A stretch of DNA of 64,000 bases from positions 1,054,001 through 1,118,000 of the forward strand of contig NZ_VCNI01000002.1 of the NCBI RefSeq assembly GCF_005937185.1, read 5' to 3'. Positions 16,375-25,949 of this stretch are shown here, in pieces; position 1 is the stretch's first letter, and each line of letters starts with the position of its first letter. A program made the translations under genes and the position numbers. Below the pieces are notes generated by a model that worked only from the letters and a program-made list of their open reading frames with translations, made no database searches and had not been told where the DNA came from. This stretch comes from Flagellimonas algicola (lineage in GTDB: Bacteria > Bacteroidota > Bacteroidia > Flavobacteriales > Flavobacteriaceae).

Positions 16375-16983
16375 ATGGCTTTTGAATTACCAAAATTACC
16401 CTATGCATACGATGCCTTGGAGCCACATATAGATGCCCGGACCATGGAGATTCACCATACCAAGCACCACAACGGTTATACCACCAAATTAAATGGTGCC
16501 ATTGCCGGAACGGACTTGGAGGGACAGTCCATAGACGACATTCTTTCCAATTTGGATATGTCCAATGGTGCGGTTAGAAACAATGGCGGAGGATTTTACA
16601 ATCACTGCCTTTTCTGGGAAGTAATGTCTCCTGCTGGTGGAGGTTCCCCAAGCGGGGATTTGGCCGCTGCCATTGATGCTGCATTTGGCTCTTTTGATGC
16701 TTTTATGGAACAGTTTAGTGCTGCTGCCGGCACCCGATTTGGTTCTGGATGGGCATGGCTTTGCGTGCACAAAGGCGGAAAGTTGGAAATCTGCTCCACG
16801 CCCAACCAGGATAATCCGTTGATGCCGGATACGGGTTGTGCGGGACACCCTATTTTAGGACTGGATGTGTGGGAGCATGCTTACTATTTGAACTACCAAA
16901 ACCGCAGACCGGATTATGTTTCAGCTTTCTTTAATGTAATCAACTGGGATAAGGTAGCAGAAGGATATGCTTCCAATAAATAA
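16375..16983 (+). CDS. sodA: Superoxide dismutase (Mn/Fe family, Mn-type residues)
   Basis: A 202-residue cytoplasmic enzyme converting superoxide to oxygen and hydrogen peroxide. Metal ligands H27 (EIHHTKHH), H77 ([10 protein letters not shown]), D164 and H168 ([11 protein letters not shown]) are all present. A glycine-rich GGGFYNH in place of AAQxWNH, and Gln in STPNQDNPL, are marks of the manganese or cambialistic branch. There is no signal peptide. A hairpin with a T tail follows at 17073-17095. Confidence 0.93.
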
Positions 16984-17394: not shown

Positions 17395-18957
17395 ATGAAA
17401 AAGATTACCTACTTAGGAATTGTATTGTTGTCCATTGGATTGTTTGTTCTGTCTTGTGGCAAAGATGATGGGCCGGAGAAACCAGACCCGAACCCAAATC
17501 CCAATCCAAACCCGACTACCATCGAATTGGACAAGACAAGTTTAAAACTGTACCCCTTTCCCTTTTATACAGAAGGTTTACAGGTAACCACCGATATTGG
17601 AAGCGCTACGGTTGCTTGGAGCAGCAGCAATGAAGATGTAGCGGCCGTGAACGCTAACGGAGAAGTTACCCCCCTGGCCATAGGGACTACAACTATAACT
17701 GCCAAAGTTGGTGAGGCCACAGCCACGTGCTCTATAAACGTTGCAGATGGCCCAGTAAATGAGTTGACCTTGGATGAAGAGACCCTAGAGCTTTTTACCA
17801 ACGAAATGGGTGGCCTTTCGCTTACCATAGATGCTGAAGTCGAAAACACAAGCGCACCTGTTTGGCATTCTGATGATGAAACGGTGGCAACCGTTGATCA
17901 GGAGGGTAATGTAACGGGACAAGGAACAGGGACTGTAGAAGTTTCTGTTACCGTGGATAACATGACCATTGCTATGGTTGTAACCGTTAACCCTAATGTG
18001 TATGTAGTAGGCTCCGCAGATGAAAATGCCGTAATCTGGAAGAATGGAACCCCAAGCATTTTAGCGCTACCGGAAGGCTTTGATTCCTATTCTTATGCAA
18101 ATGATGTTTTCGTTACGGATAGTGGCGATGTTTATATTGCTGGTCATGCCCATGACGGGTTTAAATATCAGGCCATGGTTTGGATCAATGGGGTTCCCAA
18201 GGTTTTGAATGAACTTGGATATACCCATGGATACGCCCATTCTGTAGTGGTTGATGATTCCGGCAATTTTTATGTCGGCGGCTATGAATGGGACGGGACC
18301 TACCATAATGGAATGGTCTGGATAAATGGAACTGCCCATGAGGTTTCTGATGAAGAGGTGAATGATAAGGTATTTTCTATAGCTGTGGATACAGACGGTG
18401 ATGTATATGCAACAGGGATAGAAGAGATTAACACCTTAGACCGAGCAATACTCTGGAAACTGGATGTTGAAACCGAGATTTTGGCAGAAAACAATCAACA
18501 TGTTAATGCTAGCGGAGTTGCTTTAAGCGGCACAGACATTTATGTGGTAGGAAGTGTAGAGGAAAATGGAGTTCAATTGGCTAGGAGATGGGATGTTGAG
18601 AATGATGTAGGCGTTGACTTAAACGAAAACATGAATAACAACGCCTCCGCTTCTGATGTTGTTGTGGACAATGGTGTGGTATTTACCGTGGGAACCGAAT
18701 ATGAGTTTGAGAATGGAAATACTGCTAAACTGTGGATTGATGAAACTGCGGTTGCTTTGAGCAATGAAGTGAGTACAAACGCCAATTCTGTAAAAGTAGA
18801 TCCGGTAGACAAAACTGTATATATAGCAGGTCAGAAAAACCTTAATGGTCCAGATTGGGCAGCAAGACTCTGGATTAAAAGAGGTGATGATATTGAAACA
18901 AAGGACTTATCGGAATCCTATCAAAATTCTGGGGCCAGAGCAGTATTTATAAAATAA
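17395..18957 (+). CDS. Lipoprotein with two BIG2 domains and a predicted seven-bladed propeller (copy A)
   Basis: A 520-residue surface or periplasmic lipoprotein of unknown function. Residues 1-21 are a lipoprotein signal (SIGLFVLSC, lipidated Cys at about 21), then a Pro/Asn-rich linker. Two BIG2 immunoglobulin-like domains follow (about residues 42-115 and 120-198), with the usual VAWSSSNEDVAAVNANGEV pattern. The remainder carries seven repeats of about 40-50 residues that share [YF]-x-x-G ... W-x-x-[DG], which suggests a seven-bladed beta-propeller. The start is fixed by the lipobox. The gene is paralogous to 19465-20763, nearly identical over the first 26 residues but diverged in the propeller. 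No enzyme motif is visible; adhesion or ligand binding is a guess. Confidence 0.85.
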   Translation: MKKITYLGIVLLSIGLFVLSCGKDDGPEKPDPNPNPNPNPTTIELDKTSLKLYPFPFYTEGLQVTTDIGSATVAWSSSNEDVAAVNANGEVTPLAIGTTTITAKVGEATATCSINVADGPVNELTLDEETLELFTNEMGGLSLTIDAEVENTSAPVWHSDDETVATVDQEGNVTGQGTGTVEVSVTVDNMTIAMVVTVNPNVYVVGSADENAVIWKNGTPSILALPEGFDSYSYANDVFVTDSGDVYIAGHAHDGFKYQAMVWINGVPKVLNELGYTHGYAHSVVVDDSGNFYVGGYEWDGTYHNGMVWINGTAHEVSDEEVNDKVFSIAVDTDGDVYATGIEEINTLDRAILWKLDVETEILAENNQHVNASGVALSGTDIYVVGSVEENGVQLARRWDVENDVGVDLNENMNNNASASDVVVDNGVVFTVGTEYEFENGNTAKLWIDETAVALSNEVSTNANSVKVDPVDKTVYIAGQKNLNGPDWAARLWIKRGDDIETKDLSESYQNSGARAVFIK

Positions 18958-19464: not shown

Positions 19465-20763
19465 ATGAAAAAGATTACCTACTTAGGAATTGTATTCTTG
19501 TCCATTGGATTGTTTGTCCTGTCTTGTGGAAAGGATGATGGATCCGAGCCTGATCCCAATCCCAATCCAACCGCTATTGAGCTAGATAAAAGTAGTTTGG
19601 AGTTATTTAGAACTGAAACGGAGGCTATTTTAATTGGCAATCTTGATGAGTTCAATAGCTCTCTAGAATGGCAATCTTCTGACAAAAATGTTGCAACAGT
19701 AAACAATGATGGGGTCGTGACTGGGATAGATTTAGGCACAACAACTATAACGGTCACTTCTGGAAACCTCTCAGCAAGTGTTAGTGTGGCGGTAAATCCT
19801 GATTTCTATGTAGGAGGATATATTAGGAAAAATGACAAAAATTTTGGAAAGGTCTGGAAAAATGGAAAGATACACTCTTCCTTTGGAGCTGGAACTGTTA
19901 TCAAATCAATACAAATAAACGATTCTGACGTTTTTGCATGTGGATTGGAATTTGAAAACGGAAGAGCTTCGGTAAAATACTGGGAAAATGAAATATCCAA
20001 TGATTTGGCAAACGATTTTAATGATGCTGCGGGCAATGGAATACTGTTAAAGGGAGAAGAGGTTTTGGTAGCTGGATTTACAAGGGATGAAAATAATCAA
20101 GAAACTGCCATCCTATGGGAGGATGGATCATCTATAGCTTTGGATATAGGTCCAGAACATTCTGGAGCTCGTGCCCATTCCTTAATGGTGAACAATAGTG
20201 GGGAATACATAGTAGGTATGGGGCGTAATTATCCATCCTATGATGCCTTGTTATGGAAGGACAGAGGGGAGGCCATACGCTTAAGTAGCGGAGATTACTG
20301 GGCAGAAGCATTGGCAATTGATGTGTGGAGTTCTGGAAAATACGTCGCCGTTGGATTTGAAGAAAATGAAGATGGAGGAGATATGGCTGTCGTTTGGGAG
20401 GAAGATCAAGACCCTTATTTTTTGACCAGCGAAGGTGAATCTCAAGCAAAATCCGTGGATATTGGGGAGGATGGAGATGAATATGTCGGTGGATATCATG
20501 ACTTAGGAGAGGTTCGGTATGGTAAAATTTGGAAAAACAAAACAGAGTGGGTTGTACCGAATAGTACTGGCAATGCTGATATCAGATCTGTTTTTGAATT
20601 TGAAGATTATGTTTACGCGACAGGGTTTGGTCAGGAAGATGATGATAGCCCAACTTGGGCAAAAGTGTGGAAGATAAATATGCAAGGACAAATTGTAGAG
20701 ACCATAGAACTTGCCAAGGAAGCGGGAGATGAAGCGTATGCCTATTCCATCCTCGTAAAATAA
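19465..20763 (+). CDS. Lipoprotein with one BIG2 domain and a predicted seven-bladed propeller (copy B)
   Basis: A 432-residue paralogue of the lipoprotein at 17395-18957. The signal peptide and lipobox (FVLSC) are almost identical, the linker is shorter, and only one BIG2 domain is present (about residues 35-112, WQSSDKNVATVNNDGVVTG). The C-terminal part again shows seven [YF]-x-x-G ... W repeats, but with little identity to copy A. The short linker and single BIG2 domain explain most of the length difference. Like copy A it has a separate leader and terminator, so each is its own transcription unit. Function unknown. Confidence 0.85.
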   Translation: MKKITYLGIVFLSIGLFVLSCGKDDGSEPDPNPNPTAIELDKSSLELFRTETEAILIGNLDEFNSSLEWQSSDKNVATVNNDGVVTGIDLGTTTITVTSGNLSASVSVAVNPDFYVGGYIRKNDKNFGKVWKNGKIHSSFGAGTVIKSIQINDSDVFACGLEFENGRASVKYWENEISNDLANDFNDAAGNGILLKGEEVLVAGFTRDENNQETAILWEDGSSIALDIGPEHSGARAHSLMVNNSGEYIVGMGRNYPSYDALLWKDRGEAIRLSSGDYWAEALAIDVWSSGKYVAVGFEENEDGGDMAVVWEEDQDPYFLTSEGESQAKSVDIGEDGDEYVGGYHDLGEVRYGKIWKNKTEWVVPNSTGNADIRSVFEFEDYVYATGFGQEDDDSPTWAKVWKINMQGQIVETIELAKEAGDEAYAYSILVK

Positions 20764-20844: not shown

Positions 20845-20915
20845 GAAAAGGGCGAGGAAGCCCTCACCCTTTTCGTCCCAAATCTTACCATAAACTTAAC
20901 CTACTTATGCTATGG
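20845..20915 (-). ncRNA. Candidate small RNA, array unit 1
   Basis: The predicted minus-strand RNA runs from 20915 to 20845 (71 nt). The promoter is TTG (20950-20948), 19 bases, then TAATTTAG (20928-20921); five bases later begins the 40-base core CCATAGCATAAGTAGGTTAA and onward (20915-20876). This copy differs from the others in the core at two positions. The core is followed by a terminator hairpin (20874-20845), 13 pairs if one G-U is allowed, and then CTATTTGG. The opposite strand could be read as a short peptide, but here its start codon is ATA. Confidence 0.6.
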
Positions 20916-21038
20916 CGAAACTAAATTACTGGTATTGTGAGAAATAACAAAAGTTTTTGCAGAATTTTTTGAATTGGAGCCGAAAATGGAAGGGAAGATT
21001 TAAGCAACATTTTTGGTAAATCGTTGGGGTTCAAACAT

Positions 21039-21107
21039 AAAGAAGGCGGACATTGTCCGCCTTCTTTCCCCAAATCTTACCATGAACTTAACCTACTTAT
21101 GCTATGG
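21039..21107 (-). ncRNA. Candidate small RNA, array unit 2
   Basis: The predicted RNA is 69 nt. The promoter is TTG (21146-21144), 22 bases, then TACTTTTG (21121-21114), an exact TAnnTTTG box. The 40-base core is 21107-21068. A perfect 14-bp hairpin (AAAGAAGGCGGACA and its complement, 21067-21039) abuts it, with ATGTTT beyond. An 80-codon open frame on the plus strand covers this unit and is considered fortuitous. Confidence 0.68.
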
Positions 21108-21253
21108 TAGCTCCAAAAGTAAGGCAGAGGCTGGCTTTGGGAACAAGCTTTTAGATGAAACTCCTGTTAATTGGGTGAACGGATCGGGCCGGGGTGTGGA
21201 CGTACGGGAATTCAGGAAAAGGACTACGGGAATTATGGAAACCCCTAAAAAAT

Positions 21254-21323
21254 AAAGCGACCGGAGTATTCCCCGGTCGCTTTCCCCAAATCTTACCATG
21301 AACTTAACCTACTTATGCTATGG
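21254..21323 (-). ncRNA. Candidate small RNA, array unit 3
   Basis: The predicted RNA is 70 nt. The promoter is TTG (21361-21359), 22 bases, then TACTTTTG (21336-21329). The core (21323-21284) is identical to that of unit 2. The hairpin AAAGCGACCGG with its complement (21283-21254) can be extended by a U-G and a G-C pair on the minus strand only. It is followed by ATTTTTTAGG, a classic terminator tail in this direction. Confidence 0.68.
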
Positions 21324-21451
21324 TCCTCCAAAAGTAAGGCAGAGCACCACTTTGGGAGCAAGCTTTTAGACGAAAGCCCAGTTGTTTGGGTGAAATACAA
21401 TAGTCGTTGAAAAGGACTACGAAATTTGTTGGGGAAGGCCGGATGGAAAAT

Positions 21452-21522
21452 AAAAAAGGTGGAATAGCTTCCACCTTTTTTGCCCCAAATCTTACCATGA
21501 ACTTAACCTACTTATGCTATGG
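21452..21522 (-). ncRNA. Candidate small RNA, array unit 4
   Basis: The predicted RNA is 71 nt. The promoter is TTG (21560-21558), 22 bases, then TACTTTAG (21535-21528), one mismatch to the box. The core (21522-21483) matches units 2 and 3. The hairpin AAAAAAGGTGGAA with its perfect complement (21481-21452) is followed by ATTTTCC. It is the unit nearest the purF stop (21622), so its hairpin could also end purF transcripts. Confidence 0.66.
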
Positions 21523-21573
21523 CAATACTAAAGTAGGTTTGTAGGTTGCCCAGTAGGCAAAAATCCGTTCATC

Positions 21574-21619
21574 TGCACGTTTCATCGATGAAATGCACAG
21601 GTGTTCCCAATATTGGGAA
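21574..21619. other. Two short palindromes after the purF stop
   Basis: TTTCATCGATGAAA (21580-21593), flanked by TGCA on both sides, and TTCCCAATATTGGGAA (21604-21619) are perfect palindromes directly downstream of purF. Neither has a T tail, so they are not clear terminators. Dyad symmetry of this kind could be a protein site or an RNA-stability hairpin. Confidence 0.4.
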
Positions 21620-21621
21620 AA

Positions 21622-23520
21622 CTAATACGCTCTCTGGTTTTTTCCCTCGTAAAAATTGATGAATGCCCGGTTTACAACCCGGTTCCCTCCCGGTGTAGGG
21701 TAGTTGCCTGTAAAGTACCAATCCCCCAAGTTTTTTGGACAGGCTTGGTGTAGCCCTTCAATACTTTGGTAGATGATATCCACTTCGGCATTGATACCTT
21801 TAGGACTTAGGATTTCGGCAATTTTCTTCGAAATCTGGTCTGCGGTAAACGGGGCGTAGAACTCCTTTACATAGTTGACCACCTCTTTGTCCTTGGATTC
21901 GGTTTGGGTGAGGCACTTTTCATAAATCTCTCGGATCTTGTCCGTTGTGCCATGATCTTCATGCAGCGCTTGGGCCGCTTTGAAGGCCACAAAATCTTCC
22001 AGTTTGGCCATGTCTATTCCGTAACAATCCGGGTAACGGATTTGCGGAGCAGAGGATACCACAACGATTTTCTTTGGAGATAAACGATCCAAGATTTTTA
22101 GGATACTCTTCTTTAAGGTTGTCCCTCTAACAATACTGTCATCAATGATGACAAGGCTGTCCCCCTTTTTTACCGATCCATAGGAAATGTCATAAACGTG
22201 GGCCACAAGGTCATCCCTACTACTGTCTTGGGTGATAAAGGTTCTTAGTTTGGCATCTTTAATGGCCACTTTTTCTATCCGTGGGCGAACGTCCAAGATT
22301 TGATGAAGCTCTTCACCAGAAATGTTTGGCCCAAGGGCTAGGATTTGTTCTTCCTTAAGTTTGTTAAGGTAGTTCTGCGCCTCTTTGACCATCCCAAAAA
22401 AGGAAGTTTCCGCCGTATTGGGAATATAGGAAAACACAGAGTTGGCCAAATCATTATCTATGGACTTAAGAATTTGTGGGAATACCAATTTCCCCAACAT
22501 CTTTCTTTCCTGATAGATTTCCTTGTCACTTCCCCTTGAGAAATAAATGCGTTCAAAAGAACAAGCTTTTCTTTCCGTTGGTTCTTGAATTTGCTCCAAA
22601 TGAACATCACCTTTTTTCTTGATGATCAAAGCATGTCCCGGATCCAGTTCTTTGACCGAATCATAGGGCACATTAAATACGGTTTGTATGGCAGGGCGTT
22701 CCGAAGCTACCACCACCACTTCATCATCTTGGTAATAATAGGCAGGCCTGATTCCTGCAGGATCTCGTACCACAAATCCATCACCATGTCCCAATAGACC
22801 ACCCATGGTATAACCCCCATCCCAATTTTTGGAGGCTTTTCTCAATATTTTGGCAACATTCAATCGCTCTGCAATAAGGGGTGAAGCTTCCCTTTTGTTG
22901 TATCCTTCTTTCTTGATCTGCTTGTACAATTTGGCTACAGCATCGTCAAGAAAATGTCCAATCTTTTCCATCACGGTTACCGTGTCTGCCATTTCCTTTG
23001 GATGCTGACCCAAAGTGACGAGGTTCTCGAACAACTCGTTCACATTGGTCATGTTAAAGTTACCTGCAACAATGAGGTTACGGTGCATCCAGTTGTTCTG
23101 CCTTAAAAAGGGATGAACGCTTTCAATACTGTTCTTCCCAAAAGTGCCATACCGAACATGACCCATTAACAACTCTCCTATATAAGGAATGTTACTTTTC
23201 TGCAACTCCACATCATTTTCCAAACCGGGATGTTGTTCCAGAGCTGTGTTGATTCGGTCATTGATTTGAGCAAAGATGTCTTGGATGGGCTGTTGCTGGG
23301 CAGAACGTACCCGGCTCATATAGCGCTCCCCTGGTTTCATGTCCAATTTAATACTGGCAAAACCAGCTCCGTCCTGACCTCTGTTGTGCTGTTTTTCCAT
23401 CATGAGGTACATCTTGTTGACCCCATAAAATGCAGTACCATACTTTTCCTTGTAGTACTCCAGTGGTTTAAGCAATCGGATCATGGATAATCCGCACTCG
23501 TGCTTAATAGCATCACTCAT
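21622..23520 (-). CDS. purF: Amidophosphoribosyltransferase (PurF-like)
   Basis: A 632-residue class II glutamine amidotransferase fused to a phosphoribosyltransferase. It makes phosphoribosylamine from PRPP and glutamine, the first step of purine synthesis. The catalytic Cys is C9 (KHECGLSMI) after a short removable leader. NRGQDGAGFAS and VRYGTFGKN mark the glutaminase, and VIIDDSIVRGTTLKK is the PRPP-binding loop. It is longer than the roughly 500-residue E. coli enzyme, as in the longer Bacteroidota form. A terminator-like hairpin ends only 8 bases before the ATG. purN lies three genes upstream, which fits purine metabolism. Confidence 0.87.
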   Translation of the reverse strand: MSDAIKHECGLSMIRLLKPLEYYKEKYGTAFYGVNKMYLMMEKQHNRGQDGAGFASIKLDMKPGERYMSRVRSAQQQPIQDIFAQINDRINTALEQHPGLENDVELQKSNIPYIGELLMGHVRYGTFGKNSIESVHPFLRQNNWMHRNLIVAGNFNMTNVNELFENLVTLGQHPKEMADTVTVMEKIGHFLDDAVAKLYKQIKKEGYNKREASPLIAERLNVAKILRKASKNWDGGYTMGGLLGHGDGFVVRDPAGIRPAYYYQDDEVVVVASERPAIQTVFNVPYDSVKELDPGHALIIKKKGDVHLEQIQEPTERKACSFERIYFSRGSDKEIYQERKMLGKLVFPQILKSIDNDLANSVFSYIPNTAETSFFGMVKEAQNYLNKLKEEQILALGPNISGEELHQILDVRPRIEKVAIKDAKLRTFITQDSSRDDLVAHVYDISYGSVKKGDSLVIIDDSIVRGTTLKKSILKILDRLSPKKIVVVSSAPQIRYPDCYGIDMAKLEDFVAFKAAQALHEDHGTTDKIREIYEKCLTQTESKDKEVVNYVKEFYAPFTADQISKKIAEILSPKGINAEVDIIYQSIEGLHQACPKNLGDWYFTGNYPTPGGNRVVNRAFINFYEGKNQRAY

Positions 23521-25819: not shown

Positions 25820-25910
25820 GTTTAAAAGGCTAAATTACTGCACACGTATCTAATATGTTTAATTTGAGGCACATTTTATCGACAAATGGTGTATTTAATC
25901 CAAAGTTTTA

Positions 25911-25918
25911 TATTTTTG
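25911..25918 (+). promoter_or_regulatory. Putative -7 box (TATTTTTG) of acpP
   Basis: An exact TAnnTTTG match lies 31 bases before the acpP ATG. No TTG is found at the standard upstream distance. The position fits a promoter for the acpP-fabF-rnc run. Confidence 0.5.
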
Positions 25919-25949
25919 CCCCGATTAAATTTTTAAAACCGATATAATT

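Follow-up and report, generated by a model that had tools for sequence, protein, structure and literature searches.

A family-wide tandem array of predicted small RNAs in Flavobacteriaceae, with predicted pairing sites at mRNA start codons and a putative yidC-linked decoy

Introduction

Small RNAs (sRNAs) can themselves be titrated: in the SroC, ChiX/chbBC and AgvB systems, a small RNA or a piece of mRNA mimics the target and draws the sRNA away. Among multicopy sRNAs, FopS/GibS of Bacteroides thetaiotaomicron comprises, according to the accessible portion of its description, 14 paralogues (nine intergenic, four antisense and one 3′UTR-derived) with a single-stranded 5′ part; these RNAs are short and terminator-ended, and their conserved seed pairs near the start codon of mRNAs for envelope proteins (SusC) (PMC11697453). 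In Listeria, the portion available for LhrC1-5 likewise describes a multicopy sRNA, whose promoters share a regulatory element and whose pairing impedes translation of a surface protein (PMC4132741). Closer in phylogeny, Rfp18 of Flavobacterium psychrophilum is conserved in the genus Flavobacterium and has metalloprotease and adhesin mRNAs as predicted targets, as far as the accessible text of its report goes (PMC9723704).

Here we analyze an array of short repeated units in a window of 64,000 nt, the whole stretch of Flagellimonas algicola DNA that was studied and to which all window positions below refer. Its host belongs to the Flavobacteriaceae, a major family whose members live in the sea, in soil and in fresh water, and in which, to our knowledge, regulatory RNA has been little explored.

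Results

An earlier note on this DNA, made from the sequence alone, had described a tandem array of four near-identical small-RNA-like transcription units. The array is real, and the tests reported below support its reading as a set of sRNA genes. The units and their conserved neighbors are as follows.

21452..21522, minus strand: sRNA unit A, nearest purF; core 21484-21522, then a terminator hairpin with a T-rich tail
21254..21323, minus strand: sRNA unit B; core 21285-21323, then a terminator hairpin at 21254-21283
21038..21107, minus strand: sRNA unit C; core 21069-21107, then a strong hairpin and a weak T tract
20846..20915, minus strand: sRNA unit D, nearest sodB, with U at position 24; core 20877-20915 and a terminator hairpin
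21622..23520, minus strand: purF-type amidophosphoribosyltransferase with a glutamine amidotransferase domain (Pfam), the conserved upstream neighbor, which we take by family to be purF
16375..16983, plus strand: Fe/Mn superoxide dismutase (SOD, “sodB”), the conserved convergent neighbor

The four cores are nearly identical: over 39 nt a single position varies, C or T at position 24, and position 40 is A in unit D and G in the other three. Each core starts CCATAGCATAAGTAGGTTAAGTT and is followed by a hairpin of 12-13 bp, giving predicted RNAs of about 70 nt, as had been proposed. Up to three mismatches, we found no further core copy in the 4.54 million bases (14 contigs) of the same genome. 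The whole predicted RNAs fold better than shuffled sequences, with z-scores from -2.5 to -5.0 over the four units. A terminator for every unit, as the earlier note had it, stands for three of the four minus-strand hairpins, which a terminator scan flagged, whereas the hairpin of unit C (21038-21067) was not flagged; the next bases there are ATGTTTG, a weak T tract. Terminator hairpins were taken from single folds, the RNAalifold consensus having misaligned them. By eye, the hairpin sequence varies among same-genus units while its arms stay complementary.

The earlier note had also held that little of the 5′ part could pair with itself beyond CCAU/AUGG. This proved wrong for the predicted structure, in which CCAU/AUGG is joined by A5-U23, G6-U22 and C7-G21 around a 13-nt loop, and a single fold draws three more pairs within that loop. 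Few parts of the core are as constant as the loop AGUAGGUUAA and the linker around GAUUUGGG. Across 33 distinct cores, pairing is kept in 90.9% of cells; in relatives, both bases of pair 5/23 have changed in three cases (GC twice, UA once), and pair 6/22 alternates between G-U and A-U. Shuffled controls reached the five measures in 20, 251, 6, 244 and 19 of 500 cases, and they are not decisive because the core hardly varies. The predicted 5′ hairpin is supported, but thinly.

A 106-base query matches 70 of 71 same-genus genomes, the sole miss being an 83% complete genome, and over 42 distinct units of the genus the core is invariant but for one column. Across the family, a strict 33-mer was found in 142 of 397 genomes, while the reversed 33-mer gave 0 in all rows of the search, so that chance is excluded by the family-wide conservation together with this control. 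A first covariance model revealed variant cores such as CCATAACATTAGTAGGTTAAGTTTATGGTAGATTTGGGGC, carried by named Flavobacterium loci. A core model built from 33 variants then matched 205 of 239 Flavobacteriaceae genomes and 175 of 202 genera (completeness of 90% or more, E ≤ 0.01; 3 of the 205 only at E > 0.005), with one to seven matches per genome. Matches outside the family, five in a phylum-wide sample of 247 genomes (E 0.0016-0.008) and two when the first model was run on 296 genomes of the order (E 0.0014 and 0.005), were taken as noise. In the relatives, the units are conserved across the family as promoter, core and hairpin, in an order and at a spacing kept over genera.

The chromosomal position is conserved too. 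Among the at least 118 named loci listed, 112 contain purF or the Fe/Mn-SOD gene and 85 contain both; the six with neither are L097, L106, L148, L158, L179 and L204, the last being only 1.4 kb long. In F. algicola, two Ig-like lipoprotein genes lie between the array and sodB. These related (Big_2) genes, at 17395-18957 and 19465-20763 of the window, have near-identical start regions.

Bacteroidota-type promoters have a TTG-like element at -33 and TAnnTTTG at -7. The earlier note had assigned such a pair to every unit; the strict TAnnTTTG is present in the two middle units, B and C, whereas the outer two have TAnnTTAG. We located the following elements upstream of the cores.

21528..21535, minus strand: -7 box TACTTTAG of unit A (sequence, class logo)
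21329..21336, minus strand: -7 box TACTTTTG of unit B (sequence, class logo)
21114..21121, minus strand: -7 box TACTTTTG of unit C (sequence, class logo)
20921..20951, minus strand: promoter of unit D, with TTTG, a 19-nt spacer ending CAATACCAG, then TAATTTAG
21556..21596, minus strand: direct-repeat activator-like site of unit A, half-site TTTnAnC recurring at about 20 bp, weaker than those of units B and C
21358..21398, minus strand: direct-repeat activator-like site of unit B (repeat-period test, matrix scan)
21143..21183, minus strand: direct-repeat activator-like site of unit C (repeat-period test, matrix scan)

The spacers had been described as divergent, with conservation confined to promoter, core and hairpin position. 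They do carry features: the upstream sequences of the two middle units agree at 83% over 69 nt, and units A, B and C belong to classes with an upstream direct repeat, the unit A class being present in other genera as well. In 181 upstream regions from many genomes, thinned to below 75% identity and with AATACCAGTA-element upstreams left out, a direct repeat at -70 to -40 stands out at a period of 20 bp (z 21.3 against shuffles, compared with 4.5 at period 21 and 4.7 at period 25). The unit D promoter differs from those of A-C, is kept in most units of its class and has one match only in the window; most members of that class carry TTTGTTATTT..CAATACCAGTAwTTTAG in place of the direct repeat. 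Since the upstream regions form these two kinds, one RNA seems, on its promoters, to be under two controls. LytTR regulators may own the direct repeat, a candidate guessed from the 20-bp period, which we presume to be like that of LytTR sites. The genome has 25 LytTR genes; in a repeat-matrix scan of their loci the best score was 16.6, where shuffles of the window reach 14.5, and no clear promoter or autoregulatory repeat site was singled out among them. A repeat-matrix match at the acpP promoter was set aside as part of a different, palindrome-like conserved element. This element (CACATTT..AAA..GTG) lies upstream of acpP in the gap between purN and acpP-fabF (window 25871-25949), is seen by eye in many of 40 loci, and might be the site of a fatty-acid regulator.

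The earlier note could not tie the array to a named family, and neither could we: Rfam at gathering thresholds gave no match in the window. Among the strongest scores below threshold, RmaA reached 32.9 of 57 bits across a spacer and a hairpin, STnc40 29.5 of 45 bits and sraA 29.1 of 56 bits; we rejected all three. Much of the match in these sub-threshold alignments is A/T-rich hairpin, except for the FopS seed. FopS itself (RF04319) scored 20.6 and 21.0 bits, where the gathering threshold is 56. The FopS seed in the cmscan output, UUCAUGGUAUUAGAUUU, resembles UUCAUGGUAAGAUUU of the array RNA, a resemblance reached by 8 of 400 shuffles for the core of this genome and by 111 of 400 for the Flavobacterium form, and the FopS-like stretch lies partly in the predicted stem. 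We do not file the array RNA as FopS because the Rfam score is well below threshold and the seed resemblance marginal. A search of the open-licence literature, supplements aside, for four 13-nt words taken from the core or from its complement gave no paper, and the array RNA is not named in the accessible portions of two experimental works on flavobacteria (PMC9723704, PMC5395568). Rfp18, or another of the 85 new F. psychrophilum RNAs mentioned in that portion of PMC9723704, may be a member of this family. In the RNA-family databases and open-licence papers searched, we did not find the array RNA described.

An antisense seed in the 5′ part, suggested in the earlier note, is backed by complementary sites at start codons; short words are not enriched genome-wide in two of the three genera considered. 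In 464 kb of the F. algicola genome, antisense-core 10-mers occur 11 times at start regions against 2.3 expected (none of 300 shuffles, counted as occurrences). Counted per gene with 9-mers, the enrichment is weak, 11 of 384 genes against 6.8 (reached by 25 of 300 shuffles) and, in a further 400 kb, 12 of 334 against 5.7 (13 of 300 shuffles); in two other genera there is none (4 of 340 against 5.8 and 9 of 336 against 10.4). With per-gene enrichment weak or absent, the true targets per genome may be few. A duplex-energy test over 718 genes of this genome gave a modest signal, 2-3 of 40 shuffles reaching the observed counts. The two lipoprotein genes beside the array ranked 44th and 26th of the 718 by duplex energy and are unconvincing as targets. 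The word test being weak per gene and unreplicated in two genera, we relied on site placement, leader footprints and a bipartite search.

In 60 genomes, the number of sites for the loop complement AACTTAACCTACTTA with at most one mismatch is not raised (233, array copies included, vs 156 for the reversed word). Their placement is distinctive. Among the matches listed, 40 lie off the array (row G190, a confirmed array copy, was left out), and of these start codons account for 18, intergenic positions for 15, the antisense strand of a gene for 5 and gene interiors for 2; the control, 30 loci taken one per genome from the 156 reversed-word sites, has 1, 2, 23 and 4, respectively. Start-codon placement differs between 18/40 and 1/30 (Fisher p 8e-5). 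At least 3 of the 15 intergenic sites (L327, L400, L401) run straight into the ATG of an uncalled frame. The dprA gene of F. algicola has a perfect 15-nt loop-complement site at -19 to -5, and the apparent same gene in a second genome (G012) has the 15-nt site with one change, G-U tolerated. At several loop sites the complement of the linker, CCCAAAT, lies a few bases upstream.

Searching for both parts together, we found 36 matches to the pattern CCCAAATN{1,10}TTAACCTAC in 28 of 219 genomes, whereas the reversed pattern gave 11. Among the 36, L469 is itself an array copy. Among 30 bipartite loci, 12 are at start codons, 11 intergenic and 7 within genes, at least 4 of the latter in what looks like one conserved gene. 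Two genes recur. A small lipoprotein (MKKLFSLLAIASIIAISNC..NNDPILGIW) carries the site in four genomes of three genera (G000, G063, G300, G145; loci L461, L462, L468 and L470, orthology by eye), and L406, of a fourth genus, has the loop site. A 147-aa protein (MTCLEC..) carries it in G282 and G096, and corresponding places exist in G285 and G281. Pfam assigns no family to either protein. The gene for the 147-aa protein (L480-L509), a query itself picked through its site, is present in 41 of 199 family genomes. In the best 30 of these 41, 18 leaders have TTAACCTAC with at most one mismatch within their last 40 nt, 25 have a CCCAAA-like box within their last 60 nt, and 15 have both; in the control stretch from -110 to -70, where the loop site alone was counted, it occurs in 0 of 30. 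These leaders pair with the sRNA at a mean predicted energy of -25.2 kcal/mol, compared with -14.3 ± 1.9 for 50 letter-shuffled sRNAs, none reaching the observed value.

A simple lipobox rule was applied to 21 unique targets, drawn from the loop-complement and bipartite loci, whose site precedes the ATG (L456 dropped, having the same site as L325); 11 matched, compared with 140 of 1394 genes of the background. The non-lipoprotein dprA accounts for two of the 11, and orthologues, by eye, of a single lipoprotein for five; the 21 targets fall by eye into 13 gene families, 5 of them lipoproteins. A lipoprotein bias of the targets is likely, resting on few families. At one locus of the F. algicola genome (L289, G000:C7:1177560-1178720), a divergent pair of genes, by eye endonuclease/exonuclease/phosphatase-like and TonB-receptor-like, has a bipartite site in both start regions. 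Separately, same-genus loci L331, L332 and L412 (and L335 and L336) share a recurrent intergenic GCTTAACCTACTTAGA.CTTGG with CCCCAAATT downstream, which is not a start-codon site.

Three of the intergenic sites (G273, G281, G285) turned out, by eye on the sequence, to be not leaders but a separate small gene convergent with yidC, with a promoter-like TCCCAAATCTTACCAAACTTAACCTACTTAATGC or close variant and an intrinsic-terminator-like hairpin. A model of this gene matched 33 of 199 genomes in 32 genera, including F. algicola (C1 34841-34944, minus strand; G000, L526), the matches all falling in the single clade that had supplied the model. Every one of these 33 genomes also has the 147-aa target gene, present in 41 of the 199, which is what a single clade would show. 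Of 30 loci of the complementary gene, 26 include yidC, and 29 of the 30 pair with the core at a predicted -28 kcal/mol or better, the exception being L539, where the scan picked another spot. With the three seeds and L539 left out, 26 copies pair with the core at a mean of -35.4 kcal/mol (-28.1 to -45.6), as against -14.5 ± 1.9 and a best of -23.7 for 200 dinucleotide-shuffled sRNAs; this complementarity is partly selected, since the model includes the complement. The yidC neighborhood and the upstream TTGACAACT-type promoter were not selected by the model. One genome (G199, L518) has four tandem yidC-linked copies, each with promoter-like and terminator-like sequence. Rfam at gathering gave no match in three yidC-linked loci. 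In G224, which is not among the 33 genomes, a core complement lies in an apparent 3′ UTR directly before a terminator-like hairpin (L478), a possible mRNA-borne decoy.

Discussion

We described near-identical units, each with its own promoter and terminator (one hairpin having a weak T tract), whose conserved seed is, by placement and footprint, complementary to mRNA start regions. We think it probable that they belong to a family-wide, multicopy, trans-acting sRNA that blocks envelope-protein mRNAs by pairing at their start sites and is titrated by the yidC-linked RNA. In the model that we propose from sequence, the four copies would encode one trans-acting sRNA of about 70 nt, each transcribed from its own promoter. 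The loop UAAGUAGGUUAA and the linker GAUUUGGG would pair with a bipartite site, CCCAAAU...UUAACCUACUUA, in the short leader of a target mRNA just 5′ of the start codon or across it, so that ribosome entry would be blocked and translation would fall; repression rather than activation is assumed from the position of the site. Putative targets include several lipoproteins or exported proteins, as well as dprA and the 147-aa protein. In the clade of F. algicola, the yidC-linked gene has a near-complementary copy of the core between a promoter and a terminator of its own; its RNA, with a predicted start UCCCAAAU, would begin with CCCAAAU like the target leaders, and would bind and titrate the array RNAs. 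Multiple array copies would set the dose, and with two promoter types a single pool of RNA would answer to two signals.

Other readings of the same data have to be weighed against this one. The same leaders could be paired with the opposite outcome, the mRNAs being protected or activated, or the yidC-linked RNA could be the effector, titrated by the array RNAs. CCCAAAU directly follows a -7-like box both in the target leaders and in the yidC-linked gene, so that pairing would cover mRNA 5′ ends, and the yidC-linked gene too occurs in four tandem copies in one genome. However, the loop complement lies against the start codon or across it, where repression classically acts, and the array occurs in most of the family whereas the yidC-linked gene turned up in a single clade, so that the array RNA must have work of its own; we consider these variants unlikely. 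We give still less credit to the array RNA acting mainly by titrating a protein, as a CsrB/RsmY-like RNA or a ligand of an RbpB-like RRM protein would, with the mRNA sites being promoter or protein-binding elements. The extreme conservation of 39 nt and the multiple copies would fit such a role as well, but over both loop and linker the sequences in the mRNAs and in the yidC-linked gene complement the core rather than resemble it, and a shared protein site would be same-sense.

Two further readings dispense with a functional noncoding RNA. The repeats could be DNA elements, namely binding sites for transcription factors, terminators that work in both directions or remnants of a mobile repeat, as the earlier note had considered in part. 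A mobile repeat or a phage origin finds no support, the exact core pattern having no match in viral contigs and the copies in this genome all lying at one locus, and the order and spacing of promoter, core and hairpin are conserved over genera, with hairpins that, by eye, change in sequence while their arms remain complementary; we regard DNA elements as very improbable. That the core encodes a short peptide (ATG GTA AGA TTT GGG...) is barely credible: the core does contain an ATG from which ORFs are listed, but its frame would extend into the terminator hairpin, which varies, and the linker of other lineages is one base shorter (GGTAAGATTTGGG vs GGTAGATTTGGGG), both of which would break the frame. 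The core does not look like a coding sequence, a possibility also raised in the earlier note.

Returning to start-site repression with a yidC-linked decoy, the larger proposition is that these elements form a previously undescribed core circuit, in which an almost invariant, multicopy sRNA from the purF-SOD locus acts on a two-part site at the 5′ end of envelope lipoprotein mRNAs and silences them, and a dedicated mimic, encoded beside yidC in one large clade, keeps this sRNA in check; to this we give an even chance. If true, the supply of envelope proteins and the capacity for membrane insertion would be coupled through RNA. An sRNA shared across the family, with targets legible from their sequence and a matching decoy gene, could parallel the conserved envelope sRNAs of enterobacteria, and it offers testable handles in its predicted targets, a two-part site suited to compensatory mutations and a decoy that can be deleted.

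Compared with the systems described so far, the array RNA can be set beside FopS, with which it shares the phylum, multiple copies, a terminator end, a start-codon seed and envelope-protein targets, the targets of the array RNA being predicted ones. It differs in that its copies are mostly at one locus, its 5′ part is a predicted hairpin and its strongest target signal runs through the loop; we propose a complementary decoy RNA for the array, whereas none is mentioned for FopS in the accessible portion of its description (PMC11697453). LhrC, likened to the array by description, comes from another phylum and has CU-rich pairing sites and LisRK as activator. Rfp18, also compared by description and from the accessible part of its report, belongs to the same bacterial family and pairs through a third stem-loop, whereas the array RNA has two predicted hairpins. 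Unlike the SroC, ChiX and AgvB sponges, the presumed sponge here is a separate gene that lies by yidC in many genera and, in one genome, in four tandem copies.
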